Positions 36,119 to 63,397 of a DNA stretch of 64,000 nucleotides are shown piece by piece. Source of the stretch: Azorinus chamasolen (lineage: Eukaryota; Mollusca; Bivalvia; Cardiida; Solecurtidae); NCBI GenBank assembly GCA_963576725.1, contig OY755242.1, positions 9,205,132 to 9,269,131 on the forward strand. The letters are read 5' to 3'. The number at the start of each line of letters is the position of its first letter. Within the stretch, counting starts at the first letter, position 1. The notes under the pieces were generated by a model. It did not search any database and was not told where the DNA came from. It worked only from the letters and a program-made list of their open reading frames with translations. Made by a program: the position numbers and the translations under genes.

Positions 36119-36142
36119 AGGGGAGGTCCCTACAATCGACAT
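36119..36142 (+). repeat. Left terminal inverted repeat
   Basis: It aligns with the reverse complement of 63370-63393 at 19 of 24 positions, including an uninterrupted GTCCCTACAAT. TTTCAGAAA follows within 30 bp at both ends. Confidence 0.9.
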
Positions 36143-36380
36143 GTTTCAGAAAGGCCTAAAATATACAAAATTTGTTTGTTTATATGCTGAAAAGAAGTAT
36201 ACCACAAGAAAACCGCTCGAAAAAAACGTTGAAAATGACAAATTTTGATATCGAAGACCCCGATGTTCTTCGCCGATGTGTCAGTTATATTCGGGTTGGG
36301 TTTTAGTTTCGTAGTTGTTCGCGCTACTTCGCGTCACCCCGGCCACTTCCGAGAAAACCCGTAAAAGTGTTATGTAAACA
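36143..36380 (+). promoter_or_regulatory. Left subterminal region / promoter of the ballast gene
   Basis: This is the only sequence between the TIR and the first ATG, so it must hold the gene's promoter unless a 5' exon lies outside the element. It becomes CpG-rich near 36325-36360 (TTCGCGCTACTTCGCGTCAC). A GATATCGAAGACCCC block weakly resembles TATATCGAAAAATGCCCC near the right end. Confidence 0.5.
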
Positions 36381-39300
36381 ATGGAGGAGGGATCCAGCGA
36401 ACTGGTGAGTAACTTCAAAAACAAACGCAAATGCGACTGAAACTATATAAGCTGAACAGCGAAATAGTATAGAATATTCAAATAATATCGCAGCTTGCAT
36501 TTTCATGTTTAATTAAGATGCTTTGTACAGTTTGTGTTGTATTCATGAGAGTTAAAGAGGTGACGATGTAGACGATGTGTACATCGTCATCGAGGATAAT
36601 TGTATACACGTTATTGTTCAAGCAGAAAGTTCATAACGCGTGTTTAAATCACAAGTTCAAAATGTGCATATCTCTAGAGAAATGTTTATTTTTCGAGAAT
36701 TTGCTTTTGATTAGTTCCCATCTGCACTGGTGCTTTGACGATTCGTACGATTTAGCCTACAGTAAATTTACCGTTTAACCCTTTCCCTCATATAAACGTG
36801 TTTTCACGCATTTGCAAACAGAGTAGACACAGATCAGACGACTCCTAGAGGAGCGGTCTGATCAGGGTCTGCTCTGTTTGCTAACATAATTTGAAAATTC
36901 TGTTTCTTTACTTTCTAAAATGGCTACAATGTTCTACTTTCCATATTTCATAATAACCTTTTTGTCATGGATGAATATTCAGTTGGTATTGAAATTTGGG
37001 AATGGGTTCAGGATGTTTTGCAGTGTATGAAATCAATAGGGATTTTATTTCTCTTGTGAAGATTTGATAAATAGCTTGAAGGGACGCATAAAAGATCTGC
37101 ATCGTAAGTATAAAAATTACCGTGTTTATTGTAATTACAACAGTTAGTGAGTTACTACCATAGTTACAGAAATGCATATGGCCCTAAGACGTATGATAAG
37201 GCATGTGTTATTATAGGTCTTTGTATGGCCCGGCCATTTTACTGTACAAGATATTGCCACTCATTGATGTAAAATGTTTTCTATTATGTTATAGAGTACA
37301 TCAGATACTGCATCAGCAGTTTCAGCAAGCCCAGTGAGGAGGCGTCCCACTAGACGTGGTAGAGCCAGAGGACGTGGCACAAGAGGAGGCAGAGGTGGTG
37401 CAAGAGGTGCAACTCATGTTCGTGGCACTAGAGGGGGCAGAGGAGGTGTGAGAGGTGCAACTCGTGCACAGGGACAACTTGGGGCAGTTCGGGGAGAATC
37501 GGAGAGTGAGAGGAAGGAAAGGATGAAGGTTATTATTGTTTCAATAATTTATTAGCATAGTAGAACCCTTTACTCTATGAATAATCATGTTAGAAATAAT
37601 GACATCATGCATATAAATAAGATTAATTTGTTATAATAGCACATGGACACATGAGTTTTGGGCTGTAACAGAAATTTTATTAACATACCTTTATTATATC
37701 ATCAGCGTTCTGATCAGACAGCTCCTATAGGAGCCGTCTGATCTAGGTGTACTCTGTTTGCAAAGGTGTATATAATATGGCGGAGATGCAATTTCTTAAT
37801 AGTACATGAAAACATTTAGGCTTTGACAAAAACTGTAATCTATATTTTTCATTAAGCAAAAAACAGACCATGATCAGACGACTCTTATAGGAGCAGTCTG
37901 ATCTGGGTCAATTTTTTTGCCAAGGCATATTAATGAAGTAAAGGGTTATACAATTTAACCCTTTCCCTGTTCTATGTTTGTTCCAAATTTCAATACCTAT
38001 TGAATATTCATTAACAAAAATAGCTATAAAGAAATATGAAAGGTTGAATATTGTAGACATTTTAGAAGACAAAGAAACAGATTTATCAAATCATATTACC
38101 AGAGCAGACCCTGATCAGACGGTTCCTCTAGGAAAAAGCTTTGACAGTATAATGTGATCATAAGTAAAATCTAGTCATCAGTTCATCCAAAGAGATTGGA
38201 CTAGAAAATGACTTAACCCCTTTCCGTTTTAAAAACGCCTGTCATGCATTTGCAAACAGAGTAGACCCAGATCAGGTTGCTCCTGTAGGATATGATGTAT
38301 ATTTGATTGTACAGTTTCATTCAATGCAAACAATTCCCTTGAAAAAGTTTACCTTGCAGAAATTGAGCTCATGTTCATGATGTCATTTATATTTCTTACA
38401 CGAATCTCGTTCTTGACAAGGGTAAAATTATTCTTCTGATCAGGGTCTACACTATTTGTGGTACTTTAGAGTTAATCGATAACCAGTACATCATACAATA
38501 TATTGTAACCCGTTGTCTCTCCAAGAGTTCATTCGATTCCATAATTTGTGCATGTAAATATTGTGGTTTCCACAAGACAACGTTGCTGATAAGAATGTTT
38601 TTTTTATTGACAACTGCTAATTTCGAAGACTAGGGAAGACTGACAGCCAGTTTTCATTTAATGTGATTTATTTTATAATTTAGTTGCCAGTTAATGTATA
38701 CTTATGAATAAAACTTATTTTTCTGTGCAGGGTATAATCGCAGAGATGAATGAAGACAGGGCAAAAGGTGTGCTCTTGATGGTCGTGGAGAAGCAGCCAG
38801 CCATCATGTTTGAAATTCTCGACAGGGTGGACCCCCAAGACCCCAGCAGATTTCATCCACAACCTGGGTCTAGTGCACCACCATGGTGTAGGTGTGGAAA
38901 CTGCAGGGAAATGCCAAGCATTCCGGAACGTATCTGCTGTGGTCGCAGTCCACAACACTGCATTTCAACACACGAGGTAATGAATCTTCTAACAGGCGTC
39001 ATAAGAACATGTTTTGTAATAGTACCAAGTAAATCCAATTTTCCCTTGAGGCAGATGACATGTGACTACATGTAGTAGCGAGTACTCATGTATGTTATGA
39101 AATTTATCCTTGAAATATTGATGCCTGGTGGCTCAGAACCCGTACTTCATTCTGAGTGTTGTTATACCTTCTGATCCTTTGAGATCATGAGTTTCAGTAC
39201 TTCTTGTTCTGAAAATTGAATACCGTCTAAGCCGGTGCAAGGGGGCATGAGCAGTGTTGCACTTTCAATTACTGTTCATGAACAGACTAAAAAAAACCGA

Positions 39301-40184: not shown

Positions 40185-41149
40185 ATAACATTGTATGTTT
40201 AATCATTTCTCTCATAGATTATGGGTCCCATGGTGGCTGTTTTTAAAACTATTCCTTCATATTGACACCTCTGTAAATGTAACATGTTGAAACCATTGTG
40301 ATAAATAGAGCATTTGTTCCATAATAGCTCTATTTATCATAATTATTTCAAAACTACACATATAAAAATGATACTTTTCTCTAGCAAATACTCTTTTTTT
40401 GGTAGATTTATTCAAAGATACTTGGTCTAATAAAGCCTATAAGAGAATTGGACAAATATTACAAATATTTTTTCTAGCTTATATAATGTCCGGTCAATTT
40501 TCTAGTCAACAGATTCTGTAATGGATATTTGTAAGATGATATTTTGAATAAAAAATGTTAGGGAAGGGGTTAATTATAGCCATAAATCAATCGGCTGAAT
40601 TTCACGGCTTAAAAAACCTGTTTCTGTCTAACTCTTTACTCCATGAATAATCATCATTTTATGTGTTAAAGAAATTATGGCCTTGTGAATATGTGTTAAG
40701 ATAATTGATATAATTACACATGGACACAAGCTCTATTATATCATAAGCAAACAGAGCAGACCCTGATAGGATAGCTCCTATAGAAGTCGTCTAATCTTTG
40801 ACTACTCTGTTTGTAAAGGCGATAAATATGCATATTTATATAATAAACGGTTAAGCTGAAATCATACATTTATTCCCACTGTCTAATTCTTTGTATAAAA
40901 TCTTGCTCAAACAGATTTTCAATTGTTTTATTCATAGCTTGCAATTATTTTCAGGCATAAGCATGTCATTTGAATTCGACACTTCAAGTAAACATCTGTT
41001 TTAGCAGGAATTTATACTCAGACACTAAAGTATTAGGTGTACAATCTGATGGCTTGACCAAATCTTGAATGAATGAATGAAGAATGAATGAATGAATGAA
41101 TGAATGAAATACTTTATTTCACATTCACATACAATATGACAGTCATATG
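40185..41149. repeat. 3' flank of ballast gene with repeats
   Basis: A hairpin, GATAAATAGAGCATTTGTTC.../..GCTCTATTTATCATAA, at 40290-40352 matches the insert at 37-395. An H-like piece is at 40735-40830 and a (GAAT)n microsatellite at 41068-41108. Confidence 0.6.
40547..40552 (+). terminator. Possible polyadenylation signal
   Basis: AATAAA lies 363 bp after the ballast stop codon. It sits close to repeat sequence, so its use is uncertain. Confidence 0.35.
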
Positions 41150-41390
41150 TAACCCTTTCCTTCATATAAATGCCTTTTTACATTTTTGCAAACGGAGTAG
41201 ACCCAGATCTGACAGCTGCTTTATGAGCAGACTGACCGGTGTCTGCTCTGTTTGCTTTCAATATGATACAGATCTGATTCTGCAGTTTTTGCCAAACCAA
41301 CGGTTTCCTTGAAAAGTTAACATAAAATTCAGCTACGGAGTATTCATAATGCCATTACTTCTTACGTTGTATTTAACAGGGAAAGGGTTA
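41150..41390. mobile_element. H-family hairpin MITE
   Basis: Complete copy: TAACCCTTTCCTTCATATAA to CAGGGAAAGGGTTA, with the CAAACGGAGTAGACCCAGAT / GGTGTCTGCTCTGTTTGC hairpin. TA at both ends suggests a TA target site. Confidence 0.8.
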
Positions 41391-41483
41391 CAACCAAAGA
41401 ACAAAACTTAACAACAACAGCTTCTGTCAGGATTTTGTGTACAAACAATGAAACTTACAAACATTGAAACTGCTGCTCATACA

Positions 41484-44400
41484 ATTATTATTATTATTAT
41501 TATTATACCACATTTATATAGCGCTCTTTTCACACGGGATATGTGCGTTCAAAAGCGCTGTACATGGATGAAATCAATAATCGGAACGAACCGCATGATT
41601 ATCTATCCAGACAATGAAAGATTTACAATAGATGTGCAATAAATATAAAAATCACTAGCCGGACGGTTAGTGAAGGATATACAAAAAATATACAATAGAT
41701 ATGAAATCATAAACCGGAAGGAACTGCATGGTCGTCCATCCAGTCAATGAAATGTATGCAATATATATACAATAAATATAAAATCACTAACCGGTAGGAA
41801 CCACATGATTATCCACCCGGTCAATGAAAGATATGGAATAGATATACAATATATGTATAACCACTAACCGGTAGGAACCGCATGATTATCCACCCAGTCA
41901 ATGAAAGATATGCAATAAATATACAATAAGTATAAAGTCACCAACTGGTAGGAACCACATGATTATTTATACCAAGTCGGTGAATTATAAGCAATATATA
42001 TACAATAAATATGATATACAATAAATACGAAATCACTAACCGGTAGGAACCACATGATTATCTATTCGGTCAGTGAGAGATTGATTCCTACAGCATATCC
42101 CAAGGGCTGCAATGGCAAAGGAATCGTAAGGTATGAGAATTGATGATTATAAGCTACTTTCCCTAAACTGTCCTAGTAGTATATGTTGAAGAAATGTGTT
42201 TTCAGAGATCTTTTGAAACATGCCAGTGAGCTTGCATCTCTAATGCCTGATGGCAGAGCATTCCAGAGTTTTGGAGCTGCATTCATGAAACTTCTCTCAC
42301 CGTATTTTACCTTACGACTTTTTGGTACAACCAACGACAAGGAGCTACTTGCTGACCTTAATCCTCTGCGGGGCCGATACACGTCAAGCATGTCGACAAT
42401 GTACTTGGCGGATTCATTGTGCATGGCTTTATACGTAAGTGTCAGAATTTTGAATTCAATGCGATGTTGAACCGGAAGCCAATGAAGTTCTTTCAAAACA
42501 GGCGTGATATGATCATATCGAGGAGTCCTGGTTATGATGCGGGCTGCTGTGTTTTGAACTCTTTGGAGTTTCTGCAGTGTGCTTTTTGAAATTCCATGCA
42601 GCAATGAGTTGCAGTAGTCTATTTTCGATGTAACCAGAGAGTTCACCAAAGTCTTGGTAGCATCAGGTGAGAGGTACTTTCTTATATGACCTATTCGTCG
42701 GAGCTGTGCATAACTAGACCTACAGACCGAATTGATGTGTGATGCCATATCCATTTGTGAATCGAGCCATGTACCGAGATTCTTTATACACAAAGACGGT
42801 TTGATCTTAGAGGGGCCTACTTGCACATGAATGTCTTCAGGTACTACTGTGTTTTTTGCATGAAACAGGATGACCTCAGTTTTGTCAGTATTGAGCTTCA
42901 GCATGTTCTGGTGCATCCAAGAGACTATTTCGTTGAGACAGATCTCAATTCGTGATAAAGCTTCTTGTTGACAGGAAATGTCTTTGGGCTTAAAGGACAG
43001 GTATAATTGCGAATCATCGGCATAAAAATGGTGCTTTAGCCCATGGTTTCTGCAGATTGAGCCGACAGGTTTTGTGTACATGATGTAGTTTTTTGGTCCA
43101 AGGACCGATCCCTGTGGCACGCTATATTTCATATTTACTGGGGTGGACAACTCCCCATCTACTGACACTATTTGATAGCGGTCATTTAGATAGGAGGTCA
43201 TCCACTCAAGGGGTTTCCCAATGATTCCGAAGTCTTTTTCAAGGCGCTTTAGCAATGTTTCGTGATCGATAGTGTCAAATGCAGCCGATAAGTCAAGCAT
43301 CACCAGAACTGTTGTTTCATCTTTATCTAGGGATTGAAGGATGTCATTCTGAACTTTCAGAAGAGCAGTCTCTGTTGAGTGATGCTTTCGGTATGCTGAT
43401 TGATAGTGCTCATGTAGATTGTTTGAGTTCAGGTGGGACTCAATGCGTTTGTCAACCACTTTTTCTAACACTTTGGAGACAAATGGCAGATTTGATATAG
43501 GCCTATAATTCTTAAGTTCATTTGAATCGAGATCCGGTTTCTTTAAAATAGGTCTGACATGTGACCTTTTGAAACTTTTTGGAACATAGGCATTGTCTAA
43601 AGAGGAGTTTACAATGTTTGTCAAAACCGGTAGGAGTTCATCAAGGCATGACTTTAATAGCCATGTAGGTATTGGATCCAGTTCGCAAGACTTACAGGGG
43701 GATGCCTTAATGATCTGTCCTACTTCTTCTACTGTAGCTGTAGCAAACTTTTCTAATACGTTTGTTGAATGCTGCATCTCAGTGTCAATCGTCGCACTGG
43801 ATACAGTGCCTGATGCAATATCAGCACGTATTTTGTCCACTTTGTCAACGAAAAAGTCACTGAATTCTTGTGCAAGATGCTTCGAGGACGAAGTCTTAGG
43901 CAATGAGATGTCACTAGTTGAACCTAGCAGATGCTTAGTGACTCTGAAAAGACTTTTTGAGTCTGCCTGGCATGCTTCAACTTTCTCTGAGTAAAAATCA
44001 ATCTTTGACTTAATTAGTAGCCTGTTGACTTTGGCACACTGTTCTCTATATAGCTGATGGTCTATTGTGAGTTTGGACTTTTTCCAGTTCCGTTCCAACT
44101 TGCGCCTTACATGTTTAGCATCATGCAGTTCCTGGGTATACCAAGGGCATGATGGTCTGAGCGTTATGGTTTTTGTACACAGTGGTGCATGTTTATTGAC
44201 AAGTGCCGCCAGTGTTTGTGTATATGACTTAACCAGCTCATCAACATCTGTCGTCTGCATACTCGATTCGATGAGTTCCGAGTTTACGAGGTCTCTTTTG
44301 AATGATTCTATATTAATTGCCCTAAGTTTCCGAAATGAAACAGTTTTCCTCACAGTTGGGGGTTTCGCGGCCTTTGCCTCGAAAGTTACGGAAAAATGAT

Positions 44401-45577
44401 CTCGCGAAACTTTACCACTACTGTCGGACAGTCCAGGATCTGTGACTTCAATGTTCGACACACAGTCATCACCGTCCCGTGTAATAACAACATCAAGGGT
44501 ATGTCCCCCTATATGAGTGGCTTCACTCACATGTTGTTGCAGTCCAAACGATTCAAGTGTACTAACAAAGTTAGCAGTGTTTCTGTCATTTGGAATGTCA
44601 AGGTGGATGTTTAAATCCCCTACAATGACGACCGGTCTGTCGGTGGTGGCAAATTTAGATAAGAAAGATGGCCACTCATTCTCAAGAAAATCCCCAGTTT
44701 TTAGACCATTTGCACGTGATGGTGGCGGTCTGTAAACAACTACTAGACGCAGAGTGAAATATCGGATACTTAAAGTGCAGTCCATGTACTCAAAGTTTGA
44801 AAAATCATTATCTCTTGTTGATGTATGGATGCGGAGTCCTATTGAAGCCTTATATATGACTGCTACCCCACCGCCATGGTTGCCATTGCAGCGAGGGACA
44901 TGTTCGATTTTGTAATGAGTAGGAACCAGTTCGTTTAAACACGATTTGTCTACAGAACTACCGAGCCAGGTTTCCGTAATGGCTACCACATCAAAGTCAT
45001 TTGAAACGATATAGTCGCAAATAGAAAGGGCCTTGTTTTTGACTGACCTGGGGTTTAAACTGCATACCTTTACAAAAGTCTGAATTCTGACTGGCGCTGG
45101 AGCTTCGCGATTTACATGCACAAGAGTTTCCGTTTTCTTAGAAAAGGGCGCTGTTGAGAATTTACTCGTGTACCGGTGGGGTTTTGAAACAATGGGGATT
45201 ATCTGGGGAAACTGTTTCAAGTGACTGAGATTTACGCCATCAGATGAAACCCTAATTTCAGTTTGACGATTTCCAGAAACAGTTGGAATTGACTGAGGTA
45301 TTTCCCTTAATTTGTTTAAATGAACACCTTTATTTACATCCCAACTACGCCTTGATTTTGAGTTGCCCCCTTTAGAGCCTCTGAATTTAGCTAAGCCAGT
45401 TTGCCCAAAATCTAACAGCCCTAGCTGTCTCAACCTGGACAATACTAGCGTGTCGGGTTTTAAAATAGGCGATGATTGCCCTATAAAAGAAAGATCACAC
45501 CTTGTATACTGTATCTGTGTTGAACTAATCCGCTTCTTTCCTTCACCTGTATATCCTAATGCCTGAGGCACACACAT
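41484..45577 (-). mobile_element. CR1/L2-like non-LTR retrotransposon (LINE)
   Basis: Read on the - strand it has an intact ORF2 (45577-42173), a 3' UTR with repeated ATCATGTGGTTCCTACCGGT motifs, the terminal GCGCTATATAAATGTGGTAT and an (AAT)n tail at 41484-41506. No ORF1 is found upstream of 45577 and no clear target-site duplication was found, so the 5' end is not fixed. It inserted into the giant transposon after the latter arrived. A truncated sister lies at 28820-29757. Confidence 0.85.
42173..45577 (-). CDS. LINE ORF2: endonuclease and reverse transcriptase, intact
   Basis: This is a 1134-residue open frame without stops or frameshifts. From about residue 170 it has an APE-type endonuclease domain: VCSLNPRSVKNK, AITETWLG, GDLNIHLD near residue 319, and a late SRDHFSV histidine motif. 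From about residue 650 to 900 it has a reverse transcriptase: NYRPISNLPFVSKVLEK, LDLSAAFDTIDH, SVPQGSVLGP, and the catalytic YADD near residue 851. The C-terminus (RSASSSLSLVVPKSRKVKYG) is typical of CR1/L2-like elements. It nicks target DNA and copies the LINE RNA into it. An in-frame stop 9 nt upstream supports the chosen ATG. The open + strand frames here are shadows. Confidence 0.93.
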   Translation of the reverse strand: MCVPQALGYTGEGKKRISSTQIQYTRCDLSFIGQSSPILKPDTLVLSRLRQLGLLDFGQTGLAKFRGSKGGNSKSRRSWDVNKGVHLNKLREIPQSIPTVSGNRQTEIRVSSDGVNLSHLKQFPQIIPIVSKPHRYTSKFSTAPFSKKTETLVHVNREAPAPVRIQTFVKVCSLNPRSVKNKALSICDYIVSNDFDVVAITETWLGSSVDKSCLNELVPTHYKIEHVPRCNGNHGGGVAVIYKASIGLRIHTSTRDNDFSNFEYMDCTLSIRYFTLRLVVVYRPPPSRANGLKTGDFLENEWPSFLSKFATTDRPVVIVGDLNIHLDIPNDRNTANFVSTLESFGLQQHVSEATHIGGHTLDVVITRDGDDCVSNIEVTDPGLSDSSGKVSRDHFSVTFEAKAAKPPTVRKTVSFRKLRAINIESFKRDLVNSELIESSMQTTDVDELVKSYTQTLAALVNKHAPLCTKTITLRPSCPWYTQELHDAKHVRRKLERNWKKSKLTIDHQLYREQCAKVNRLLIKSKIDFYSEKVEACQADSKSLFRVTKHLLGSTSDISLPKTSSSKHLAQEFSDFFVDKVDKIRADIASGTVSSATIDTEMQHSTNVLEKFATATVEEVGQIIKASPCKSCELDPIPTWLLKSCLDELLPVLTNIVNSSLDNAYVPKSFKRSHVRPILKKPDLDSNELKNYRPISNLPFVSKVLEKVVDKRIESHLNSNNLHEHYQSAYRKHHSTETALLKVQNDILQSLDKDETTVLVMLDLSAAFDTIDHETLLKRLEKDFGIIGKPLEWMTSYLNDRYQIVSVDGELSTPVNMKYSVPQGSVLGPKNYIMYTKPVGSICRNHGLKHHFYADDSQLYLSFKPKDISCQQEALSRIEICLNEIVSWMHQNMLKLNTDKTEVILFHAKNTVVPEDIHVQVGPSKIKPSLCIKNLGTWLDSQMDMASHINSVCRSSYAQLRRIGHIRKYLSPDATKTLVNSLVTSKIDYCNSLLHGISKSTLQKLQRVQNTAARIITRTPRYDHITPVLKELHWLPVQHRIEFKILTLTYKAMHNESAKYIVDMLDVYRPRRGLRSASSSLSLVVPKSRKVKYGERSFMNAAPKLWNALPSGIRDASSLACFKRSLKTHFFNIYY

Positions 45578-46153
45578 TTGAATTTAAATATCCAGTATTG
45601 CACAAAATTGATTTATTTATTTCACTTTTTTAAGTCAAATCACAAAACAGAATCACTTAAAAAGTACACCATTCTATTAACACTTCCTTCATGCACTATT
45701 GTGTCACTTTTTTGGAAAGTTTTATATAGTATTTCCCTCTTAAAACTATGCAAAGCGTCAGAGCGCAATCAATGCAGCCTTCACACTTTGGTGCAGTATA
45801 GGCTGCAAAGAAAAATATGTGGATGCATATTTTGTTTTGTAATTTACACCATTGCCACTGATAGGCCTGTACATAACATATAAGACTGATGGACTTGGAT
45901 TGGGGTTTATATTGTAAAAAGATTTTACAAAATATAGATACTGTTCATACTGAATATCTTTTGGGCTATAACCCTTTCATTTATAGACACAAGTTTTCAA
46001 ACAGAGAAGATTCAGATTATACAAGTTGTGTAGGAGCTGTTTCTTCTTTGTGTGCTTTGTTTGCTAATTGTTAAGCTGCTACCATTGCTAAATATTCCCC
46101 AAGTCCATGTTTCATTAAAATATGTCAATGAATATGTACGAGGTCAGACAGTT
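45578..46153. other. Non-coding stretch
   Basis: Nothing is seen beyond a degraded H-like piece at about 45975-46060. Confidence 0.45.
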
Positions 46154-46154
46154 T

Positions 46155-47821: not shown

Positions 47822-48074
47822 CTACGGTACAAATCTTGATTTCTGTGTCCTTATGAGTTCTTCTTTTGATGGCGGAGGCACTGGGGCGATTGTTGCAGAA
47901 ATTCTGCGGGGATCATCCTCCCCCATTCTGATTGGTCCCGAATTTCCCACATTGTCCTCAGCCCTTTGGCAAAACACATTCCTCATCAGTGCATCAATGT
48001 ATGCATATTCTTTCTTCTCTTTTTCATTCCTTAGTGTCCATCTGTTACTTTTCTTATTAAATATTTTGCCCATT
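47822..48074 (-). CDS. Transposase last exon
   Basis: The acceptor is CATTCCAG. It encodes RMGKIFNKKSNRWTLRNEK, then a Pro-rich end (IAPVPPPSKEEL) and a TAG. It is a positively charged tail with little else to recognise. Confidence 0.8.
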
Positions 48075-51000: not shown

Positions 51001-54000
51001 GATGGCCCAGTGGTTATAGTCGCTTAGACCGTCTAATGTGGTCCGATTCTCGTTTTCGTGGATTATTCATGTGTGAGCATTCCAGCTGGCGTGCGGTAGG
51101 TCAGTGGTTCTATGCCTGAATCACTGCAATTTGTGCCATATACGAATGAAGCGATATAGTGCATACAAATTGTATATAACTCAATAACAAACAAGCAAGT
51201 AATCTCAAGTAATCCATTGTCCCCCATGTGGAAGTATGGAGGGATATAATTGAGTGCAAACCTATAATCACCCTCCAGTGGCCGATGCTGGACTAATTAA
51301 GCCTATATGAAAAAACATTTAATATAATCCATGTAGCTTTGATATTTGAGTAGGTGTATGTGCTTTAAACGCATTCAGTGCCAGCCAGTATCAAAAGCAT
51401 AAATATGATTCACATTATTGTACTTTTTACAAAACTAATCCATAATAATTACTGTAAACTCCTCCACTGAATGGGACACCTCACATGTGTGGTAGAAATG
51501 ATTCACGATATGCCTGCACCACTTTTTCAGCAAACCACAGTTTTTCTTTTGCAACGCCTGTGTAGAGACAAAATAATTAATAATAAAAATATCTATTTTC
51601 AAGTGATATCTGATAGTCCAAATATAATATTAGAGTGACATAAGCTCATATAAAATATATGATCGAAATAGAACACCTTTTGCAGACATACAGTTTTTCT
51701 TATAAAAACCGGACAAGACATCGCAACTAACACTTTTAAACTGGGATGCCAGTCTTGGTATTATTACAGCTACTAAACATGATAATATTTGTCTACAAAC
51801 ACACAATTTGTAACTAAATTTATCGTGAGAAAACCATTTTTTTCATAAATTACCTTTATCTCCACCACCCTGATCCCAAATGCAATCCCAACCCTTTTCT
51901 TCACGTAAGCAATATTCAAACTAAGTTCCTTTAGAATATTTCATTCCTTTAAATAAATTATCATTCAGAATGAAAGTCTGGTGCTGTTTGACCACCAACC
52001 AGCCTCCCGACATACACTATAATATAACCATAATTCTTATTCGACATTTTTTGTAAAAAAAACTAATAAAAGTTTTACTTTTACGATCTTCTTTGCCAAG
52101 TTCTTTGCTGCATGCCACACATCGAATGAATGCTTGATTCCTGGGTGCTCTTTTCCTGGAAAGAAATAAATGTGTTCCTAGATGCATCAGCCAATTTCTG
52201 CATTATGAAATCTTAATATTTATTATTCATGAATCATTGTGGCTTTAGACAGTGATAAATGTTTACATGATATTTAACAGGTGTAGCTTTCTCAGACTTA
52301 AATGTTTAGTTTGGTGATACGTTGGACCCTTGCTTTATATACTAATGAAGTAGAGAGAGAAATACGATCATAATTCGTACTCTAAGGTGATACAGTAAAA
52401 GCTAATCTGCACCGAACAAACAAATGATATTTCACAAAGTATAAGAGATATGTTCTAGACAAACATTGTGACATAAATCGGAAGGCAGTAACACTATATG
52501 CCAGTAGTATAACTAACAAGATGTGTTTGTGAGACACTATGCCCCGCCTAATTTGATCTTTGACACTGAAGGATGACCTTGACCTGTCAGCCCTCAAAAT
52601 GTGCAGCTTCATGGGATACGCATGCATGCCAAATATCAAGTCTATTTGTACTGGTTCAAAAGTTATGGCCAATGTTACAGTCATTGATTTTACCTATACA
52701 TGTATATGTGACCTTTGACTTTGAAGGGTGACCTTGATCTTAACATGTCACCCCTCAGCATGTGAGGCTTTATGAGATACATATGCATGCCAAAAATCAA
52801 GTCTCTATCTGTACAGGTCCAAAAGTTATGATCAATGTTAAAGTTGCTGACAGACACGGCAAAAAAAAAGGCCCAGATCCGGGGGGGGGGGGGGGGGACA
52901 ATATGCCCCTGGATCAGATCAGGGGGAGGGGGTTAAAGATACTTGTACTTGGTTTTCTTTTCAAAGTACATTATCAACTAACTATTATTGAATGTTTTAG
53001 GTTTAGTAAAAAATAATAAGATATTTCCCTAATAGCTACAGCTCTGAGATAAATGGAAAAGTAGTAAAGTCAAGCAGGCAAAGCCACATACAAGACGCAT
53101 CCACCACAAAAACATAGATAGACAGCATGACACACACAAACGCACACTCACACACGAGATGAACACAGAACACACCAACAGACACACAAGAACCTGAGAC
53201 AAACACTCCACACATGAACAAAATTACAATCACAAAGACGCAAGGCAAACAAAAGGAAGGGTGACAAAGAGAGTAGCTCCTTAGCACGGTCAGTTGCAAA
53301 AACACCACAGGGGTTTAAACCGGTTTACAAGCCTTACTTGAGACTGAGTCTGATTGCTTGCGACTGTGTATGATAATAAATTAATCCAAATTTCCCTAAG
53401 CCAAATTCTGACATATTGCGGTCTTGACAACTATTTAGACTTGGATTCAAAATCTGTTTGGCAGCAGAACCGGTTACATGAAATAATGATTGTCATCAAC
53501 ACAGTTTGATTCATTCAGTGTAGTAGTTTCAGGCAAAAGCATCATATACTTACTTAAGAGAGCAGCTATAGATGCATGTGCGTCTGCGACAACTTCTTTG
53601 ATGATGATGTCCTGCTCTTCGAAGAAGGCTAGAGTTCGCAGGAATCCCTCCTTCTCCATCCTTACACTAGATTTCCCAGTTTCCCTCTTGTCAATTGTAA
53701 GGACCGAAAGAACCTCATTGGAGTCAACGTCCATTGCTGTATATGTGCAATACTGCGCACAGTGACCAGGTGAATCCATGCGGCCATCACCTGTAAAATT
53801 TATAAAAGTTAGCTTTCAAAACATTCCACTGCTAACAAGAGCTGTCCGCAGACAGCCACTTCTTTAGTGGTGGATAGTATAGTGGAAGTCTAAGTCGTAA
53901 AGGGGAGATAACTATACCAAAATTGATATCCGGGTTTCCTGCCCTTGTGCAATGGGTCCCCTTGTAATAGTTAACATGCATACAAAATTTGGACAGTTTC

Positions 54001-57000
54001 TGAGACATTGACCTAACATAAAGCTTAACCAACAATGAAGTAACACATGTGTCGCCTGGGAGAAGTGTTACAATAAAGAAAAGGAAAAGAAAGAGTGACG
54101 GAGAGACGGACGGACAGACATACGGAAAAGTGATCCCTAAGTGACACACTGCCTCTCGGCAGGTGACAAAAAATATGTTTGTGAAACACTGTGCCCCCTT
54201 CCCAATTTGACCTTTGACATGACCTTGGCATGTGCCCCTTTAAAATGTGCAGCTAAATGAGATCCACATGCATGCCAAATATCAAGTATTTATCTCTACT
54301 GGTTCAAAAGTTATGGCTAATGTTAAAGTCCGTGAGTTGACCTATTTATTTGACCTCTCACCTTGAAGGATAACCTTGACATGTCACCCCTCAAAATGTG
54401 CGGCTTTGTTAGATACATATGCATGCCAAATATGAAATTTCTATCTGTACTGGATCAAAAGCTATGACCAATGTTAAAGTTGTCCTGAAACAGACAGACA
54501 GGGCAAAACAATATCAATATCTGATCTGGGGGCACAATAATAAGCTATACATATGTAAAACAAAAGATATAGAAGCTTTATCTACCTGCAATTACTATTT
54601 CACCAGACCCATCCCTAATTGCCTGCAATCGAAGCCTCTGGTGTTCTTTCCAAAGTCCTTCTACAGCTGGCACAAGGTAATTTGTCTGTATGCGGTGGAA
54701 ACTTGACCTGCTTACGACTGGCAACTTCATAAAAGCAGCCATTAGAGCGACCTTCTGGTAATTGTTCCCCGAGAATAAAATACTGGCACATACATGTGAT
54801 AATCTATTGAGGCATGTCAGGCAGATTTAGGAAATTTGTCAGGTAGATTTGACTTTTGTCAGGTAGATTTTACTGACGCGACAAAAGGAGGAAACAGAAA
54901 TTTGCTTGATACTTATGTTTGTTGTACTTTTTCACATATCATTCATACTTTACCATAAATGCATACCATACCATTATAAATCTTACATTACACTTATAAC
55001 ATTTACACACTTAACCCTTTCCCTCATATAAACACCTTTTTTACGCTTAAATTTGCAAAGAGAATAGACCCAGATCAGATGGCTCCAACAGGAGCTATCT
55101 GGTCAGGGTCTGCTCTGTTTGCTTATGATATAGGAATGATTCTACACTTTCTGGTTTGGCCAAAAAATCCAATGTGGTGTTAAAATTCCCATTAACCCTT
55201 TCCTTCATATAAACAAGTTTTCATGCATTTGCAAACAGAGTAGACCCAGATCAGACAGCTCCTATAGGAGCCATCTGATCAGGGTCTGCTCTGTTTGCTT
55301 TTGGAATTTTAAAAATGTTTCTGTACTTTCTAAAATGGCAATAAGGTTCCAATCTCCATATTTCTTTATAACTACTTTGTTTATGAATATTCAGTAGGGA
55401 CTGGAATTTGGAATGAAAATGGAACAGGGAAAGGGTTAAAAGGAAATACTAATAATTGGCATGCAGTAATAATTCTAGATTTGTTTTCATGGGTCAAAAG
55501 GACTCTTTGAAATCAATAGGTCTCAAGCCCAAAACACTGGCTTCCTTATTAAATAATGTCATGAAAAAATCAATATTTATTACTGTTTAATCATATAATG
55601 AAAAGGAAATTCTATTTTATTTTATTTTATAATAACATTTTTAGGGTTTTTTTTGCTTATTTTATAGCCCTTATATAGCTATACTCCCAATGACAACCTT
55701 TACTCAGTTCAAATCAGTTAAACCTTTACTCAGTTCAAATTATTTACTGCAAACATTGAGCAGTCACAGATATGTTGAAATCCCAACAGGGTCCAGAGTC
55801 CGTGTTTTAGCCCGTATCTACAATCGTCGCGAAAACTGATGACATTTCAACTTTATATAGTTCTTATTTTTTGAAGAGTTTTCAATCGTAGATAATATTT
55901 CAGGGTGTTTGCAATTACTTCTTTAGTGTCCCTACCACTAATTATATTAAAGAAAAAGTAATTTTGTGAACAAATCAAATGCATGATTATCAGTCCAAAC
56001 AGTCTTATTTTCGAAGTGTCTCGGCCCATTGCAACAACGAGGCCAAGCACAGCTGTCTTTGACAAGGAAGCAGAGAAGCATTTCTATGTCTTATAACTTA
56101 ATTATGAGAATATAATTCCTATTATAGGGTCATGACACTCCCATGTCGCCTTACTTGAGTAATAAACCTGCTGCATGTGATATTTGTGATAGACGTTTGC
56201 ATTTTGACATGACTGGTTCCCGAACAATTTATTTGGTAAAGTCCAGTAGAGTGAAAACCGGAACCACCTCATGATTATGTAATTCGGGTGTTCTCCATGG
56301 TCTCCAAAGGGGATTCCCTTGATTGGTCCCTACCAAAACAGACCAAGCGTGGATCACAGCATGATAGCAAGCTGTGTGGTCTGTGTGTGTACAGAACTAA
56401 CAGATAAACTCCACCAGGGAGGAAAATGTATGTCACTAAAAAAACTGCCTTCGTAAAATTTCAAAAACCGGTAGTTTTGCCTACCGTTCCGGTAGAACGG
56501 TAAACCACCTCTGAAAACGGTAGAATTCACCTACCATCGGTAGTTATCACATGTATGCTGGCAGATGTGAGGAGGTCACCTGCATGCAAACCCCTTCTTA
56601 GAACAGGCTGTAAACACGGGTGCTACTAAACAGAGTCTGGTAGAGTCTGGTAGAGTCCGGTAGAGTCTGGAGGCCTTTTAAGAAGTTTAAGTGCAATTTA
56701 AAGATTATAATGCTGTTATATAGCACTATTTTGTATGTTTGCAGCAGTAGTAATTGACATTCGTAAATGAATGAGCATATAATAGCTTGAAAATTCCCTG
56801 TAAATATTACCGGGGTCACACGGTAATGGTCGACCTACGTCGGATAGAGTCTGTTCTAGTTTTAGAAGTCTATATGGTATTAAATTTCCCCCTTTTTATC
56901 AGAAAACATTTTACATACATTAATAAGTGATTTTATTATAATTTCAAAGACAGTATGGACATGATATACATGTATTGTATGACAAGATTGTTGTTTCGAC

Positions 57001-60000
57001 TTTTTCATATTGGCGAAAAGTCGGAGGGTACCGGTAGTGTCTGGAGATGAAAACGGGGTTTTTAGGCCAACATTTGCAAAATTAAGCGAATTAATGTATT
57101 AATAACAAGGTAGAGATGTATCTGCAACAATATTTCACATAAAATTGTGTAGCAATTTGTGAATAATTGGACTCAAATTGTTAGCATCGAAACCTAAGTA
57201 TACGACTCTATCCGACGCAGGGCGGCCATTACTGCGTGACCCGGTAATATTTACCGGGTGTTTTCAAGCTAATATATACGATCATTTTTTAATGGATATT
57301 AACTACTATAGCTTCAAACATACAAAATAATGTTATATAACAGCATTATAATCTTTAAATTGCACTAAAAAGGCCTCCAGACTATACCGGACTCTACCAG
57401 ACTCTACCGGACTCTACCAGACTCTACCAGACTCTGTTTAGTAGCACCGGTAAACACCAGTTAAAGTTGACATGGCCAGATTCACATGCCTGAAAATGTA
57501 TATGACTTACTTTTACTCTATAATTATACATTTTATGCCTTTGCAAACATAGTAGACCCAGAACAACTGACTTCTGTAGGAACCATCTGATCACGATCTG
57601 CTGTGTTTTCCTTACAATGTTACAGAGACATCATTTTGCCATGGTAGCAATTGCCATTATCAAAATGCAGCTAATTTTTACAATTATAAATTAAAGAATT
57701 TTCATGGAGAAAAAGGGTAACTATATCCTTAACAATCACATTTCAAAGTGGACATGCTACAATGCATACATTTTCTGTATGGTATATCTCATCTTGTACC
57801 TTTTTTACAGTCTTGATTTATGACAATGCAGTAGGGTCCTCAGATATCAAAATAAATTTGTTATTATTCAATCCAATTGCTTTACAGGTACTTTTCTCCA
57901 TTCTGCTTACTACCATTTGTAAGTAGTGCGAACACAGCACTTTGGTAATTTTATGATGAAATCATTTTATAAAAAGTCCAGAATTAGTGTATAAATTCCG
58001 AGATACCAATGACTGTTAATTAGAACCAAGTTATGCAATTCTTTTATCTTATTATAAATATATGGTGACTTGCCCATTTGAAGTATAAAGCTGAACCAAC
58101 AGTTTTCTCGAACACCTTCACCAGGCTCTCACACTTAGCTTCTGTGCATCTCTGAGGAATATTGAGACTGGTCAGGGTTAGTAGAGATTTCTTGAAGCAA
58201 ATGTACACAGACTGGTCAACTGCTGTCTCTGAATCTGCTGCTGTCAGCAGTCTTTCAACACCGTTACTAATGTGCATCTCTTCAACCTGTTGTTCATCCT
58301 TATCTTCATCATCATCATCAGTAGCATCACCAAACAGCTCATCAGCTATGGAAATTTCTTTCACATCTTCAGGGATACTGGGACTGAAATGTGGAAGATC
58401 AAATACATCTGAAACACATTATTACCATAACAGATACAAAATTACAATAACTATAATTGCTAAAGATTGTTTAGATAACCCTTTCTTTCATACCAAAACC
58501 TTTTCATACCTTCGCAAAAACAATAACCATTTTTTAATCAGAGAAGACCTAGACCAGAGGGCTCCTTTAGAAGCTGTCTGATCAGGGTCTGCTCTGTTTA
58601 AGGCCATCAAAGTCCCTTATATAAGTGAACACCCCCCCCCCCCCCCCCCTATATATTGTAAGGTAACTATAACATAACAAAACGTATTTTCAGGTAGTGT
58701 TGACCAAGATTGAACTTTGAGTGGGTTTATGGTGAATTCGCCTAATGACCAACTCGCCTACAATTAGATATATAGTAACCCGAATGGTGAATTCGCCTAG
58801 AAAGCAATTATATAGTGATTGTATTTCGCACCTATCGTAAGGTATCGATAACATAACAAAACATGTTTTCAGGTAGTGTTGACCAAGATTGAACTTTGAA
58901 TGTAGCCCCTGATCATCATTTATATAAATTATATGCATTTGAAAGCACACAATGGAGTGACAATGGAAGAGTTTGTGAGGGGAGGGGGCGTTAATAGTTG
59001 TTTACTTTGTGCAAATGTTTAAATGATTCAGAATGAAATGATGAACAATTTGATTGATTTTGTCACATGATCTGTGTACTATCTATACAGTGTTGGACAT
59101 TAGTTATGCTTGTAGCAATAATCAAATGTTGAGCCCTTTGGGGTTGATGCAAACTGTCATCATATGGTGAACACTGATCAGTGCAATCAGTATAAATTGG
59201 TTGTTAAGATGCACTTGCGTGTGATTAGGGGTTACACTGATATTTCGGTTTATTTAAAAAACAACATTTGGACAAGAAAACAACAAGGCAAGTTGTTCTT
59301 GTTACAAACAGCTTTATTTCTTTCGTTATTTACTTGTAGATCTACCTGCAATATAAGGTGTGAAATACGATCACTATATAATTGCTTTCTAGGCGAATTC
59401 ACCATTTGGGTTACTATATATTTAATTGTAGGCGAGTTTGTCATTAGGCGAATTCACCAGCACCCCTTTGAGTGTAGCCCCTGATCATCATATGCATTTG
59501 AAAGCACACAATTGAAAGAGTTTGTGAACATTTTCATTGATTTTGTCAGATGAGCTGTGTACTATCTATAGTTTCTATACATTGTTTGATATTAGTTAAG
59601 CTTGTAGCAATAAATAAAAGTTGGGAAATCCCTTTGATGTTGATGCAAACTGGCATCATATGGTGCGTGTAGTGATTAGGGGCTACACTGATCTTTCTGT
59701 TTTATTAAAAAAAAGAATCTGGATAAGAAAACAACAAGGCAAGTTGTTCTTGTTACAAACAGCTTTATTTCATTCGTTATTTACTGGTAGATCAACCTGT
59801 AATATAAGGTGTGAAATACAATCTCTATATAATTGCTTTCTAGGCGAATTCACCATTTTGGTTACTATATATCTAATTGTAGGCGAGTTGGTCATTAGGC
59901 GAATTCACCAGCACCCGATGTACCCACCCTGGTCAAGATGTACCCATTTTTAAGTCAATATGTACCCAATTAAAAAAATATAAATTTGGATATTATAAAA

Positions 60001-63000
60001 TAGTTTAATGCCTTAGAAAAAGGTTTATAATGATATTAATGACTCTAATGAGTATGAATGTGAACTTTGATTTGAAAAAAAAGACCAAATAAGAGCAGAA
60101 ATTACCTTGAAATGACAATATTTTTTTATCCATTATTGGTCTTATTTCCATGTTACATTTTACATTTAAATTCACATTAATTGACATTTTAAACCATTAT
60201 AACCCATGTCAGTTTATTAATTGTACATTATTTTGGAGTTGAATGATTAACTGATCTCAAAGTGATTTACTAAATCATTGATTTATGTGGGTATTGAAAT
60301 GATCTTGATATGGATCTAAATTTTTATAAGATTGAAAAATTAAATTACTCACCTTCTAAATAAAAATAAGTCCATATAACATAAATGAACATACAAATCC
60401 ATTCTGATACACACCCTGATATCTACAATTAAAACCAACTAATGTGCCCAAAACGTTTTCCTTCAAGTTATCCCCATATTATGACACCTAACACACTCTA
60501 ATGTCCATACTAACTGACAAACACCTGGTCATCCAAATGGTGTGAGACAAACACCTGGTGGGCCCCACCTGGTCATGCAAATGGTGTGAGACAATTGCAT
60601 TAAGTGATCGCATTAGAGGGGTTCTACTGTATATCATTATGAAAATTCGTCTAATTAATATTCATGATTTCATTATTTCTCAGATGAATAATCATAAGAT
60701 AAACGGTAAGAACTATAATGAGCATGACAGCTTGGATCCATTTGAAATGATGATCTGGATCCCAGCTGTTTGGCACCTGTTCATTAATTTCTTAATAGTT
60801 TGAGAAATAAAACTGGAAAAAAAAATTCTCAAGATCAAATTTTCAGCAGACATATTTGTTTTCAGTCTGATTAGGGTTTACCCGTTACTTCATGAATATT
60901 CATGGAAGAAATAATGACACCATGAAAAATAAATAACATGAATACTTTTACAGAAACATTATCAATACAGGAATTTATTTTACCCTGGCAAAAATTGCAG
61001 ATTCAGATTTGTATTATTTCATAAACTAACAGAGCAGACCCTGATCAGACCAATGTACTAATCATATATGTCCAGTGTGCTATTTCCAATGTGCTATGTG
61101 TGTGAATTTCCGCTTCACTCTTCAATATGCCATTCTACGCCTTGCAAACAGAGTAGACCTAAATCAGACAACTCCTGTAATACTTTTAATTTATATTTAT
61201 GTCATCATTTTTCTTAGTTATATGAAGTTGTGATGTGTAAATCATATAATAACATGTCTAATGTACCATGTGTGTGAATTTAACCGTTTCCTATAAATGT
61301 TTTTGGCAAACAGATTAAACCCAGATCAAATGGCCCCTAGAGGAGCCGTCTGATCAGGGTCTGCTGTTTGCTAATGGAATTTGATGTGTTTTTTAGTTTC
61401 TAAATTGGGTGCATTTTTCCACCTTCCATATTTCATTATAACTTTTTAACCCATGAATATTCAGTCGGTACTGAAAATTGGATTAAACATAGAACAGGGA
61501 AAGGGTTAACTCTGCATATTCGTCTGATCAGTGCTATGTGTGAAATTTAAAGTTGTTATCTCACCAAAATAAATATAATCGTTTTAGTCTTTCAGATATA
61601 CATTATTTCCATTATAAATAGCTTTCTTAAGATGAAGGTGCTGGCATCTTAATATTCAATTTTGACATTCATTAGCAGCTTTAAATATGAACAAAATTAT
61701 GATTAATATGTTAACTTATTGTTTGTATGGTATTTTTCATGATGAGTTATATATGAAATAAAATTATTTTTATTATTTTATAGAGTGACGGTCTGTGCCC
61801 CATAACAGTTCTCTTTCACACTTTCACACTCCAATGCTTATGATTGAATCCCATAAGATTGTTCATACCTTTATTTTTACAGTTTGAGTAAAGATTCTTG
61901 GTATGTACCATACAAAGAATTCAGTTTCAGTTATAAATTCATAGGATAAGGATATAAGAATGCAATAAAGGTTAGAATTTAAATAAAAATTGTCATTAAT
62001 GATTTTGATGTGAACTTTAACATGGAAATAAGTCAAATGCAATGAAGGTTAGAAATTCCAATAGAAATGGTCATTAAAAATGAAATACCCGTAAAATCTG
62101 TAATAGAGGCCCATACCCTAATAAAGGCCCCACCCTTTTTTTGTGAAAAATATTTGTGTGAAAGTGGAAATTGAACTAGTCACTGAATCGGATATCCATT
62201 TTCCAATAATAGCAAATAGAATAATACTTCCAAATGTATCTTAACCTTCAAATTAAATCCAATTCACAGAGTACTCAGACTGTGTCAGGTCAACTGCACT
62301 CATATTTTGTACAGATGAGTTAAAGGGAAAATAGTACTCTAATTAAGGCCCCCACTTTACAAAATGTATTGCCCATGGGGGCCTCTATTACAGATTTTAC
62401 GGTAAGTCAATTTTTTCAAGTCAAAGTTCACAATCAAAGTCATTATAAATCTCAATATAATCTATTAAATTGCTTTATAATGTAATAAAATTACTTTTTT
62501 TTCATTGGGTACATCTTGACTTTAGAGTGGGTACATCTTGACTTTAGAGTGGGTACATCTTGACCGAAAAATAGTGGGTACATCTTGACCAGCTCCCGTT
62601 TAAGTTTGTTATTTGAAGTTGCGCTTTCAACTTTTATCAAGGTGTTCTGTATTCGTTTATTGTTCTGTTACTTTTAGAGAGTTATAATTGCTGTTACTAA
62701 TTTCATCTATATCTGGTGTATAAATCATCAATTTCACCATATATTTGGTGTTATGCTTTCACTTTATTTAGTTGAATGCGTTTGGCAGCTGTGCTCGCTT
62801 ATAGGCTGTGCCTATTTCATATTATCCTACTCAGTCGGAATTAATGGATATGTGCTACATACTATCAATTCAAGTGTTTTTGTCATCCACAAAATATCAC
62901 TATTTACTTACGTGTCGAGCAATGTCTGCGCAACATTCCCATGCGTTTTTAATCCAAGCAGATCCTTTATGGCCATCCAACGCTCTATCTCCTCGCCTAT

Positions 63001-63117
63001 ATAAATAGTGGCTCTGTTTTTAAGATCTGTTCGTTCCTTCTGGGTTTGTTTTTTAGCCGAAGCAGACAATTTCGGTCTGCCTGGTCTTTTCTTCTCCTTT
63101 TTCATGGGCGACGCCAT
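47822..63117 (-). CDS. Kolobok-like DDE transposase, multi-exon, probably incomplete
   Basis: Exons on the - strand are 63117-62912, 58383-58074, 54782-54586, 53790-53554, 52155-52085, 51557-51453, 50750-50551, 49985-49824 and 48074-47822. All junctions agree in phase except between exons 2 and 3. There, one exon (expected to carry a C..GH..W.SQP region in related proteins, from memory) was not found. The start has a basic AT-hook (KKRPGRPK). Catalytic candidates are Asp in IVIAGDGRMDSPGH, Asp in VVADAHASI and Glu in ADLEGFNN; HSFDVWHAAKNLAKK and FGLLHHVVNEHEW are family landmarks. Recognised exons encode at least 580 residues. It should bind the TIRs and catalyse excision and insertion at TTAA. 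Whether this copy is active is doubtful. Confidence 0.83.
48104..49124. other. Transposase last intron, unassigned part
   Basis: At about 48740-48800 the sequence GGTCAGTGACAAAAGTCACT, GGGTTAAACCGGTTTA recurs at 53288-53330, so both belong to an unclassified repeat. Confidence 0.45.
49125..49797. repeat. Tandem-repeat element K
   Basis: It runs from GTGATGCCCCCATG to CAATGGGGGCAT (short inverted ends). Inside are about three units of roughly 190 bp with CCTAAGTCATTTGACCTTG, CTTGGGCTTG and GCAGCATGGG. Confidence 0.65.
49824..49985 (-). CDS. Transposase exon with the candidate catalytic Glu
   Basis: It encodes STADLEGFNNLITMYAGKRY, then VPPIYRARNLLAAIDHNAHL. The chosen acceptor (CAAG|C) keeps the frame. 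The better-looking acceptor 7 bp upstream (TGAG|T) would restore the expected FKHS residues but then needs a 2-bp frame correction at CACAGCGGAT. The exon may therefore carry a small deletion. Confidence 0.75.
50081..50204 (+). repeat. Solo LTR of the tRNA-containing TRIM family
   Basis: It starts TGTAGAGGGGTAAAAATTG and ends CACAACTTTTCACCATGTTA, with a degraded tRNA-like core (box B remnant CGACTCCCAGTCGAG). About 20 bp shorter than the LTRs at 3772 and 4074. It lies in a transposase intron. Confidence 0.7.
50551..50750 (-). CDS. Transposase exon (HHVVNEHEW region)
   Basis: Acceptor TTTTCAG, donor AAG|GTACAT. It encodes EIWFGLLHHVVNEHEWM, CCSHGPLTD and DWMSKGSPSHDALRTVV, conserved landmarks of this transposase-like family as I remember it. 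Confidence 0.85.
50782..50999 (-). repeat. Small element with CTCTTGTT end
   Basis: On the - strand it ends CGTTGCACCTGCTCTTGTT, matching the 3' signal of the larger tandem-repeat families. Its 5' limit is unclear. Confidence 0.45.
51000..51190 (+). mobile_element. tRNA-derived SINE
   Basis: Box A TGGCCCAGTGG (51003-51013) and box B GGTCCGATTCT (51040-51050) are about 27 bp apart. An unrelated body follows (TATACGAATGAAGCGATATA) and then A-rich sequence. Confidence 0.6.
51453..51557 (-). CDS. Transposase exon (KKWCRHIVNHFYH region)
   Basis: A phase 0 exon, acceptor CTACACAG, donor ACA|GTAATT. It encodes ALQKKNCGLLKKWCRHIVNH and then HTCEVSHSVEEF. Confidence 0.85.
52085..52155 (-). CDS. Transposase exon (HSFDVWHAAKNL region)
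   Basis: A 71-nt exon, acceptor TTTCCAG, donor ATC|GTAAAAG. It encodes KEHPGIKHSFDVWHAAKNLA, a strongly conserved block just after the second catalytic Asp. Confidence 0.88.
52506..52898 (-). repeat. Satellite G fragment, inverted, plus poly-G
   Basis: Reverse orientation of the 591-1990 monomers (CTCAAAATGTGCAGCTTCAT). It starts at AACAAGATGTGTTTGTGA, the complement of the family 3' end. A G17 tract lies at about 52880-52897. Confidence 0.75.
53554..53790 (-). CDS. Transposase exon with two candidate catalytic Asp
   Basis: Acceptor TTTTACAG, donor TTAA|GTAAGT. Joined to the previous exon it reads AGDGRMDSPGHCAQYCTYTA (first Asp). It continues LTIDKRETGKSSVRMEKEGF and VKEVVADAHASI type sequence (KEVVADAHASIAALL), the second Asp. 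These are the most diagnostic motifs of the gene. Confidence 0.9.
53834..54166 (-). mobile_element. Family L element, complete short copy
   Basis: On the - strand it starts GTCACCTGCCGAGAGGCAGT, followed by GTGTCACTTAGGGATCAC and CGTCCGTCC. It ends with hairpin GCTGTC-TGC-GGACAGC and TCTTGTT. The same family head is at 34331. Confidence 0.7.
54168..54530 (-). repeat. Satellite G fragment, inverted
   Basis: Two to three reverse-oriented monomers (GGTTCAAAAGTTATGGCTAA, CCTCAAAATGTGCGGCTTTG). Confidence 0.7.
54586..54782 (-). CDS. Transposase exon (ILFSGNNY region)
   Basis: Acceptor ATGTGCCAG, donor GCAG|GTAGAT. It encodes ILFSGNNYQKVALMAAFMKL, SSFHRIQTNYLVPAVE and GSGEIVIA before the catalytic AGDGRMDSPG. 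It starts in a phase that the preceding recognised exon does not supply. Confidence 0.85.
55011..55191. repeat. H-family MITE, 3'-truncated
   Basis: TTAACCCTTTCCCTCATATA start and hairpin core, running directly into the next copy. Confidence 0.7.
55192..55439. mobile_element. H-family hairpin MITE, best-preserved copy
   Basis: TTAACCCTTTCCTTCATATA to CAGGGAAAGGGTTAA. The core is a nearly perfect palindrome centred on AGCTCCTATAGGAGC with arms CAGAGTAGACCCAGATCAGA / TGATCAGGGTCTGCTCTG. Confidence 0.85.
55690..56130. repeat. Copy of the interior of the 1.3-kb element
   Basis: Same order of blocks as 19915-20330 (GTCCGTGTTTTAGCCC, TTTAGTGTCC, ACAACGAGGCCAAGCACAGC, GAAGCAGAGAAGCATTT), but no GCATGCTTCCCAACT termini nearby. 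Confidence 0.75.
56617..57452. repeat. 836-bp palindrome with TAGAGTCTGG repeats
   Basis: The arms (about 56617-56851 and 57204-57452) are reverse complements around a 350-bp spacer. The outer ends are ACACGGGTGCTACTAAACAG / CTGTTTAGTAGCACCGG. Next comes a run of TAGAGTCTGG/TAGAGTCCGG units, then AGGCCTTTT. Further in are AAAGATTATAATGCTGTTAT and CCGGTAATATTTACCGG-type pieces, and TCGGATAGAGTC/GACTCTATCCGA at the inner edges. Confidence 0.85.
57453..58073. other. Transposase intron 2 sequence
   Basis: An H-like piece lies at about 57530-57720. No exon could be recognised. Confidence 0.45.
58074..58383 (-). CDS. Transposase exon 2 (acidic region)
   Basis: I place the start at CACATTTCAG|T, which completes the leftover AC of exon 1 as Thr. 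It encodes PSIPEDVKEISIADELFGDA, an acidic DDDDEDKDEQQVEE run, and a Cys-containing CTEAKCESLVKVFEKTV stretch ending at FKW. The donor appears to be a GC type (TGG|GCAAGT), which keeps phase 0; no GT donor fits. Confidence 0.75.
58410..58730. repeat. H-like piece and poly-C tract
   Basis: CCCTTTCTTTCATACC and the TCAGGGTCTGCTCTGTTT arm lie at 58478-58600. C-rich run at 58630-58649. Confidence 0.55.
58731..59911. repeat. GGCGAATTCACC repeats: one inverted, two direct
   Basis: Direct copies of about 240 bp at 59220-59460 and 59670-59911 share ACAACAAGGCAAGTTGTTCT, CTTTCTAGGCGAATTCACCA and GTCATTAGGCGAATTCACCA. The second half is inverted at 58731-58836. Short ORFs over these are repeat shadows. 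Confidence 0.75.
61281..61508. mobile_element. H-family hairpin MITE
   Basis: TAACCGTTTCCTATAAATG to CAGGGAAAGGGTTA with the GATCAAATGGCCCC..GGAGCCGTCTGATC core. Confidence 0.7.
62089..62403. mobile_element. 315-bp MITE with 24-bp TIRs
   Basis: The ends are CCGTAAAATCTGTAATAGAG and its complement CTCTATTACAGATTTTACGG. TAATAAAGGCCCC and TAATTAAGGCCCC occur internally near each end. Confidence 0.8.
62912..63117 (-). CDS. Transposase exon 1 (AT-hook)
   Basis: The ATG follows an AAGATGGCG context 276 bp from the right end. It encodes MKKEKKRPGRPKLSASAKKQ (AT-hook core GRP) and then ATIYIGEEIERWMAIKDLLG, a likely DNA-binding helix. Strong donor CAC|GTAAGT, phase 2. Confidence 0.85.
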
Positions 63118-63369
63118 CTTTTATTGACAGACTTTCCGTGTATATGATGTGCGCATGCGCGTGACCATCGGCAAAACCCGGAAAATTTGAAATGGAAAAG
63201 GCCGATAATAAAGTGTTGTAGAACAAAAATTATCAGTATTGATGAAAACGGTTTATTGTGTATTACAGGGGCATTTTTCGATATAAGTTCAAATTGACAA
63301 TCTTCATAATATTGATTGAACATAACAAATACCAAGTGTTCTGAAGTTTTCTGAAATTATTGAAAATAT
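63118..63369 (-). promoter_or_regulatory. Right subterminal region / transposase promoter
   Basis: This short region between the TIR and the ATG must hold the promoter. TGCGCATGCGC at 63150-63160 matches the NRF1 consensus, and AAGATGGCG at the start codon matches a YY1-type initiator. Both are inferred from motif match only. Confidence 0.5.
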
Positions 63370-63393
63370 ATGTCAATTGTAGGGACTACCTCT
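63370..63393 (-). repeat. Right terminal inverted repeat
   Basis: Its reverse complement begins AGAGGTAGTCCCTACAATTG. It pairs with 36119-36142. Confidence 0.9.
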
Positions 63394-63397
63394 TTAA
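63394..63397. other. TTAA target-site duplication, right
   Basis: TTAA followed directly by ATGCCTATAGC of satellite M. Confidence 0.9.

Follow-up and report, generated by a model that had tools for sequence, protein, structure and literature searches.

The window analyzed here, a 64,000-nucleotide stretch of the genome of the bivalve Azorinus chamasolen (GenBank assembly GCA_963576725.1, contig OY755242.1, positions 9,205,132 to 9,269,131, forward strand), contains a 27-kb transposon inserted at a TTAA site within satellite repeats. We interpret it as a Kolobok element, likely of the Kol0 lineage, in which a broken transposase gene converges on an intact second gene, KolX, whose product likely helps transposition; we give this reading a probability of roughly 0.78. 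The observations behind it are the element ends, the target site duplication, an empty site, the exons, ballast-domain homology, another complete copy (contig C4), recurrence of the gene pair and an excess of silent changes. The limits of the element are:

36119-63393: transposon, 27 kb, flanked by TTAA
36115-36118, no strand: left target site duplication, TTAA (sequence, other copies compared)
36119-36142, + strand: left terminal inverted repeat, 24 bp, recurring as the terminus of other copies
63370-63393, - strand: right terminal inverted repeat, 24 bp
63394-63397, no strand: right target site duplication, TTAA (sequence, other copies compared)

The two ends, AGGGGAGGTCCCTACAATCGACAT and (reversed) AGAGGTAGTCCCTACAATTGACAT, are identical at 20 of 24 positions. 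In the window and in other copies the termini read 5'-AG...CT-3', a purine-purine/pyrimidine-pyrimidine (RR/YY) pattern. They were found again at unrelated genomic places, nearly always adjoining TTAA; exceptions among the ends inspected were both ends of the C4 copy, which adjoin TTCA, and a single left end in each of the copies L016 (CTAA) and L018 (TAAA). Because the same termini occur at unrelated places, the 24-bp repeats are element ends and not a common satellite motif, a doubt that the initial annotation had raised. Satellite units aligned across the junction once the flanks were joined without the element (best alignment 256 columns, 80%); with the left flank left unjoined, the alignment stopped at the element. 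The joined alignment indicates that insertion and empty site are real, and the annotated inverted repeats, bordering TTAA and in-register satellite were all recovered. Comparison of the left and right 700 bp of the element showed no similarity beyond the inverted end and two 13-bp matches. The boundaries drawn for a single 27-kb element hold, although part of that length consists of later insertions, among them a long interspersed nuclear element (LINE).

KolX lies on the + strand and begins at an ATG at 36381, 262 bp inside the left end. Its four exons run to a stop at 40184 and encode an intact protein of 255 amino acids:

36381-36404, + strand: KolX exon 1 (MEEGSSEL), from the spliced frame, with GT donor; present in the C4 and C3 copies
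37295-37528, + strand: KolX exon 2, RG-rich tail, from the spliced frame
38731-38976, + strand: KolX exon 3, encoding a helical region and the first ballast half (WCRCGNC ... CC), from PF20478
39921-40184, + strand: KolX exon 4, second ballast half (IPSCC) and stop, from PF20478 and P2X7 chains

The spliced protein matched PF20478, the P2RX7_C ballast domain, with an E-value of 2.3e-32, and P2X7 chains with an E-value of 1e-21, its cysteines aligning with those of P2X7. The annotated stand-alone ballast domain of the P2X7 kind was thereby borne out. A P2X7-type ballast fold with zinc-coordinating cysteines is predicted from a model of a relative, P0123, in place of the window protein itself. 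The arginine-glycine (RG)-rich tail is not covered by the alignment with P2X7; such tails occur in all nine long KolX relatives (9/9), distant ones included. Silent changes exceed amino-acid changes, placing KolX under constraint. The closest named protein matches were mostly from bivalves, and in a ballast-domain tree the window KolX grouped with Ruditapes KolX (support 98/96). P2X7 was placed near no particular element in this tree, and its position was not resolved.

The transposase gene occupies the - strand in nine exons, with its ATG at 63117, 276 bp inside the right end, and its stop at 47822, so that two multi-exon genes do converge from near opposite ends, as annotated. Exon limits follow from comparison with the C4 copy, and for exon 4 also with relatives:

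62912-63117, - strand: transposase exon 1, ATG
58074-58383, - strand: transposase exon 2, GC donor
54586-57489, - strand: transposase exon 3, split by two nested insertions; a single uninterrupted 289-bp exon in the C4 copy
53554-53790, - strand: transposase exon 4, GDGRMD and VADAH, with the first two catalytic D
52079-52155, - strand: transposase exon 5, DVWH, the DxxH motif
51453-51557, - strand: transposase exon 6
50551-50750, - strand: transposase exon 7
49824-49990 (approximate limits), - strand: transposase exon 8, ADLEGF, with the third catalytic residue, E
47822-48074, - strand: transposase exon 9, with stop

The GDGRMD, DAH, DVWH and LEGF motifs of the C4 transposase are kept in 32 relatives. 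Residues H390, H413, H414, C433 and H435 (P0012 numbering) are conserved among transposase relatives and were compared with the Kolobok zinc finger located between C/DxxH and the last E. An RNase-H fold is predicted from models of relatives. At E-values up to 1, the only Pfam matches were PF20700 (Mutator-like), PF01610 and PF10551, with no piggyBac family among them. Silent changes exceed amino-acid changes here too. The window copy lacks the stretch preceding exon 8, where the C4 copy has its splice acceptor. This loss and the split of exon 3 indicate that the gene is broken in the window, whereas its frame is open in the C4 copy. The annotated multi-exon DDE-type transposase gene stands, with the qualification that insertions split the window copy.

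The C4 copy (19.81-19.83 Mb) is a second complete element of 21.7 kb, with both ends and both genes. It is 93.8-97.2% identical to the window element in the main collinear pieces and 88.3% identical in one 283-column piece. Other copies came from two end searches in which 40 of 3188 and 40 of 2710 candidates were scored, making copy counts lower bounds. What is kept at C3:93.89 Mb is the left end together with KolX and the final exon of the transposase, and no strong match was seen in the following 16 kb. At C7:76.79-76.84 Mb the two genes are accompanied by a right end, with no left end within the 2.8 kb inspected. A 2-kb derivative made of both ends, with TTAA on each side, lies at C18:39.65 Mb. 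Short elements consisting of the two ends (about 500 bp, about 80% identical to the window element; left piece about 270 bp, right piece within some 550 bp) account for 11 of the 14 less similar copies retrieved, L015-L028, namely L016-L025 and L028.

Association of the two genes was then counted across the genome with a pairing cut-off of 30 kb. Matches to PF20478 formed 31 clusters and transposase matches 34; 29 of the latter cover at least some of the catalytic core, and identity is 30% or higher in 20 of these. A ballast cluster lay within 30 kb of 14 of these 20 loci, in convergent orientation at 13, against a chance expectation of 0.025 genome-wide or 0.09 chromosome by chromosome (two lengths guessed). 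Transposases at paired loci span about 30 to 99% identity to that of the window. Counted from the other gene, a transposase match lies within 30 kb of 15 of the 31 ballast clusters, although for one of these it is a last exon only. Six of the 20 core loci were unpaired. At the one that was read, C18:8.03 Mb, KolX intron sequence lies beside a deletion that removes exons 3 and 4; this remnant indicates that the locus descends from a ballast-bearing element. Transposase copies are thus not consistently ballast-less, and these results support the proposal of the initial annotation that the ballast gene regularly belongs to the element. For the oyster Saccostrea cucullata, the entries for a transposase, P0031 (LOC134243692), and for a ballast protein, P0123 (LOC134243685), each give a contig of 169,089 bases. 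Contig C7, 5.7% of the genome, holds 13 of the 31 ballast clusters (binomial p 5e-9), an excess that perhaps stems from a low-recombination or sex-linked region.

The Kolobok superfamily, with Kolobok-1_XT, was reportedly described by Kapitonov and Jurka in 2007. The window element resembles Kolobok elements of the Kol0 lineage, such as Kolobok-1_XT, in its TTAA target, RR/YY ends, DDE transposase with DxxH and ballast-fold second gene, and because of these shared features a Kolobok assignment fits. Membership in Kol0 is likely on the same sequence features. Compared with Kolobok-1_XT, by description only, it is far larger (27 kb; 21.7 kb for the C4 copy), with genes of nine and four exons; this size and these introns are notable. 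Bivalves are known to have Kolobok elements (PMC10294476, sections available). According to the available sections of Kojima and Bao (2022, PMC9587614), cited to that extent throughout, Kol0-lineage elements encode KolX, a protein with the fold and cysteines of the ballast, and the P2X7 tail and Nanor derive from KolX. The suggestion in the initial annotation that the pairing might be undescribed is not supported, since that paper already reports the pairing and puts forward the capture by P2X7 as well. No other paper on the link between ballast, KolX or Kolobok and P2X7 was found among candidates judged mostly from title and the start of the abstract; PMC9319628 was considered and set aside, as its mentions of Kolobok and of P2X7 are unconnected. 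What is new is the large, intron-rich member, the recurrence count, the RG-rich tail and the abundant short derivatives.

KolobokP (PMC9587614), a Kolobok lineage common in bivalves, likewise has its second gene on the opposite strand. Unlike the window element, which has no long direct repeat at its ends, KolobokP carries long direct repeats at its termini, of about 450 or 660 bp. It also has a CCHC finger following the first catalytic D, whereas the C4 protein shows none of this kind, having only two cysteines, as read by eye, between the first and second catalytic D. In P2X7 the ballast is fused to an ion channel and aligns without the RG-rich tail, whereas the KolX ballast resides in a separate gene.

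For this element we envisage that the transposase would cut at the inverted ends and paste into TTAA. KolX would use its RG-rich tail and its zinc ballast to bind nucleic acid, either element DNA or transcripts, and would act with the transposase; short end-only elements might be mobilized in trans. A nucleic-acid-binding helper of transposition is the most likely role for KolX because of the RG-rich tail and the frequent pairing. A DNA- or RNA-binding function, as the initial annotation envisaged, is a guess that the tail favors. RNA-binding proteins often have RG-rich tails, and this, together with the convergence of the two genes, would also suit an anti-silencing or regulatory factor, acting for example against small-RNA silencing from convergent transcripts and not in cut-and-paste. 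We consider such a role unlikely, and it is the main rival; the evidence here does not separate it from a transposition helper.

Several observations weigh against the Kolobok-helper interpretation. The helper role was derived from sequence and not from an assay, and the Kol0 assignment draws on features and the KolX partner in place of a tree with a Kol0 reference. Same-family copies are not independent events. The pair at C7:71.89 Mb is not convergent; among the 20 transposase loci with at least 30% identity, 6 have no ballast cluster within 30 kb, and the nine core loci at 20-25% identity all lack one nearby. These nine are single long open frames of 515-610 amino acids (C5:8.83, C5:48.81, C13:74.72, C4:78.81, C3:84.46, C7:43.37, C15:54.88, C15:55.23 and C19:59.41 Mb), possibly other Kolobok-like lineages. 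Conversely, no transposase match lies within 30 kb of 16 of the 31 ballast clusters. That last count, with the description of stand-alone ballast genes across animals (PMC7016195, available sections), could suggest a host gene captured by this element and carried as a passenger without a role in transposition. We regard this as very improbable: the pair keeps the same convergent layout beside transposases only 30-60% identical to that of the window, KolX is under constraint, and it is a known component of Kol0 (PMC9587614). A piggyBac element with a KolX-like gene would share the TTAA target, and a few piggyBac families carry a KolX-like C-terminus (PMC9587614). Those versions lack most of the seven cysteines, whereas the cysteines of the window KolX align with those of P2X7; with the Mutator-like PF20700 match in place of any piggyBac family and the AG and CT termini, the probability of this origin is negligible.

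Under the Kolobok interpretation, the published proposal of a transposon origin for the P2X7 tail gains an independent, countable check in the pairing of 14 of 20 transposase loci in one genome. The RG-rich tail points to nucleic-acid binding as the first candidate activity, for KolX and the P2X7 ballast alike. Rump et al. (2020, PMC7016195) report, in the sections available, that in several phyla stand-alone ballast (ZCD) genes show linkage with two markers; the main text contains 'transpos' 0 times. This linkage may reflect the element's own second gene. As a tentative and somewhat doubtful extension, KolX, with its RG-rich nucleic-acid-binding tail and zinc ballast, could be an obligate Kol0 partner throughout animals. 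The metazoan 'ancestral synteny' of 2020 would then be the two-gene cassette of the element and not host gene order, and the P2X7 ballast would be a nucleic-acid-handling module of a transposon that may keep some activity.

Later insertions within the element include:

41487-45791, - strand: nested LINE, absent from the C4 and C3 copies, with an open reading frame at 42173-45583
about 54789-56557: nested insertion 1 in transposase exon 3, bearing inverted ends and flanked on either side by CTGGCA
about 56613-57452: nested insertion 2 in transposase exon 3

The LINE frame (- strand, 1136 amino acids) encodes a reverse transcriptase and endonuclease (Pfam RVT_1). Its absence from the C4 and C3 copies indicates that it was not part of the ancestral element. 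Adjoining it is a 77-bp tandem repeat (41671-42012), found again in inverted orientation at 28930-29225. Two tRNA genes on the + strand, for Thr (GGT) and Ile (GAT), lie 302 bp apart at 3822-3895 and 4124-4197.
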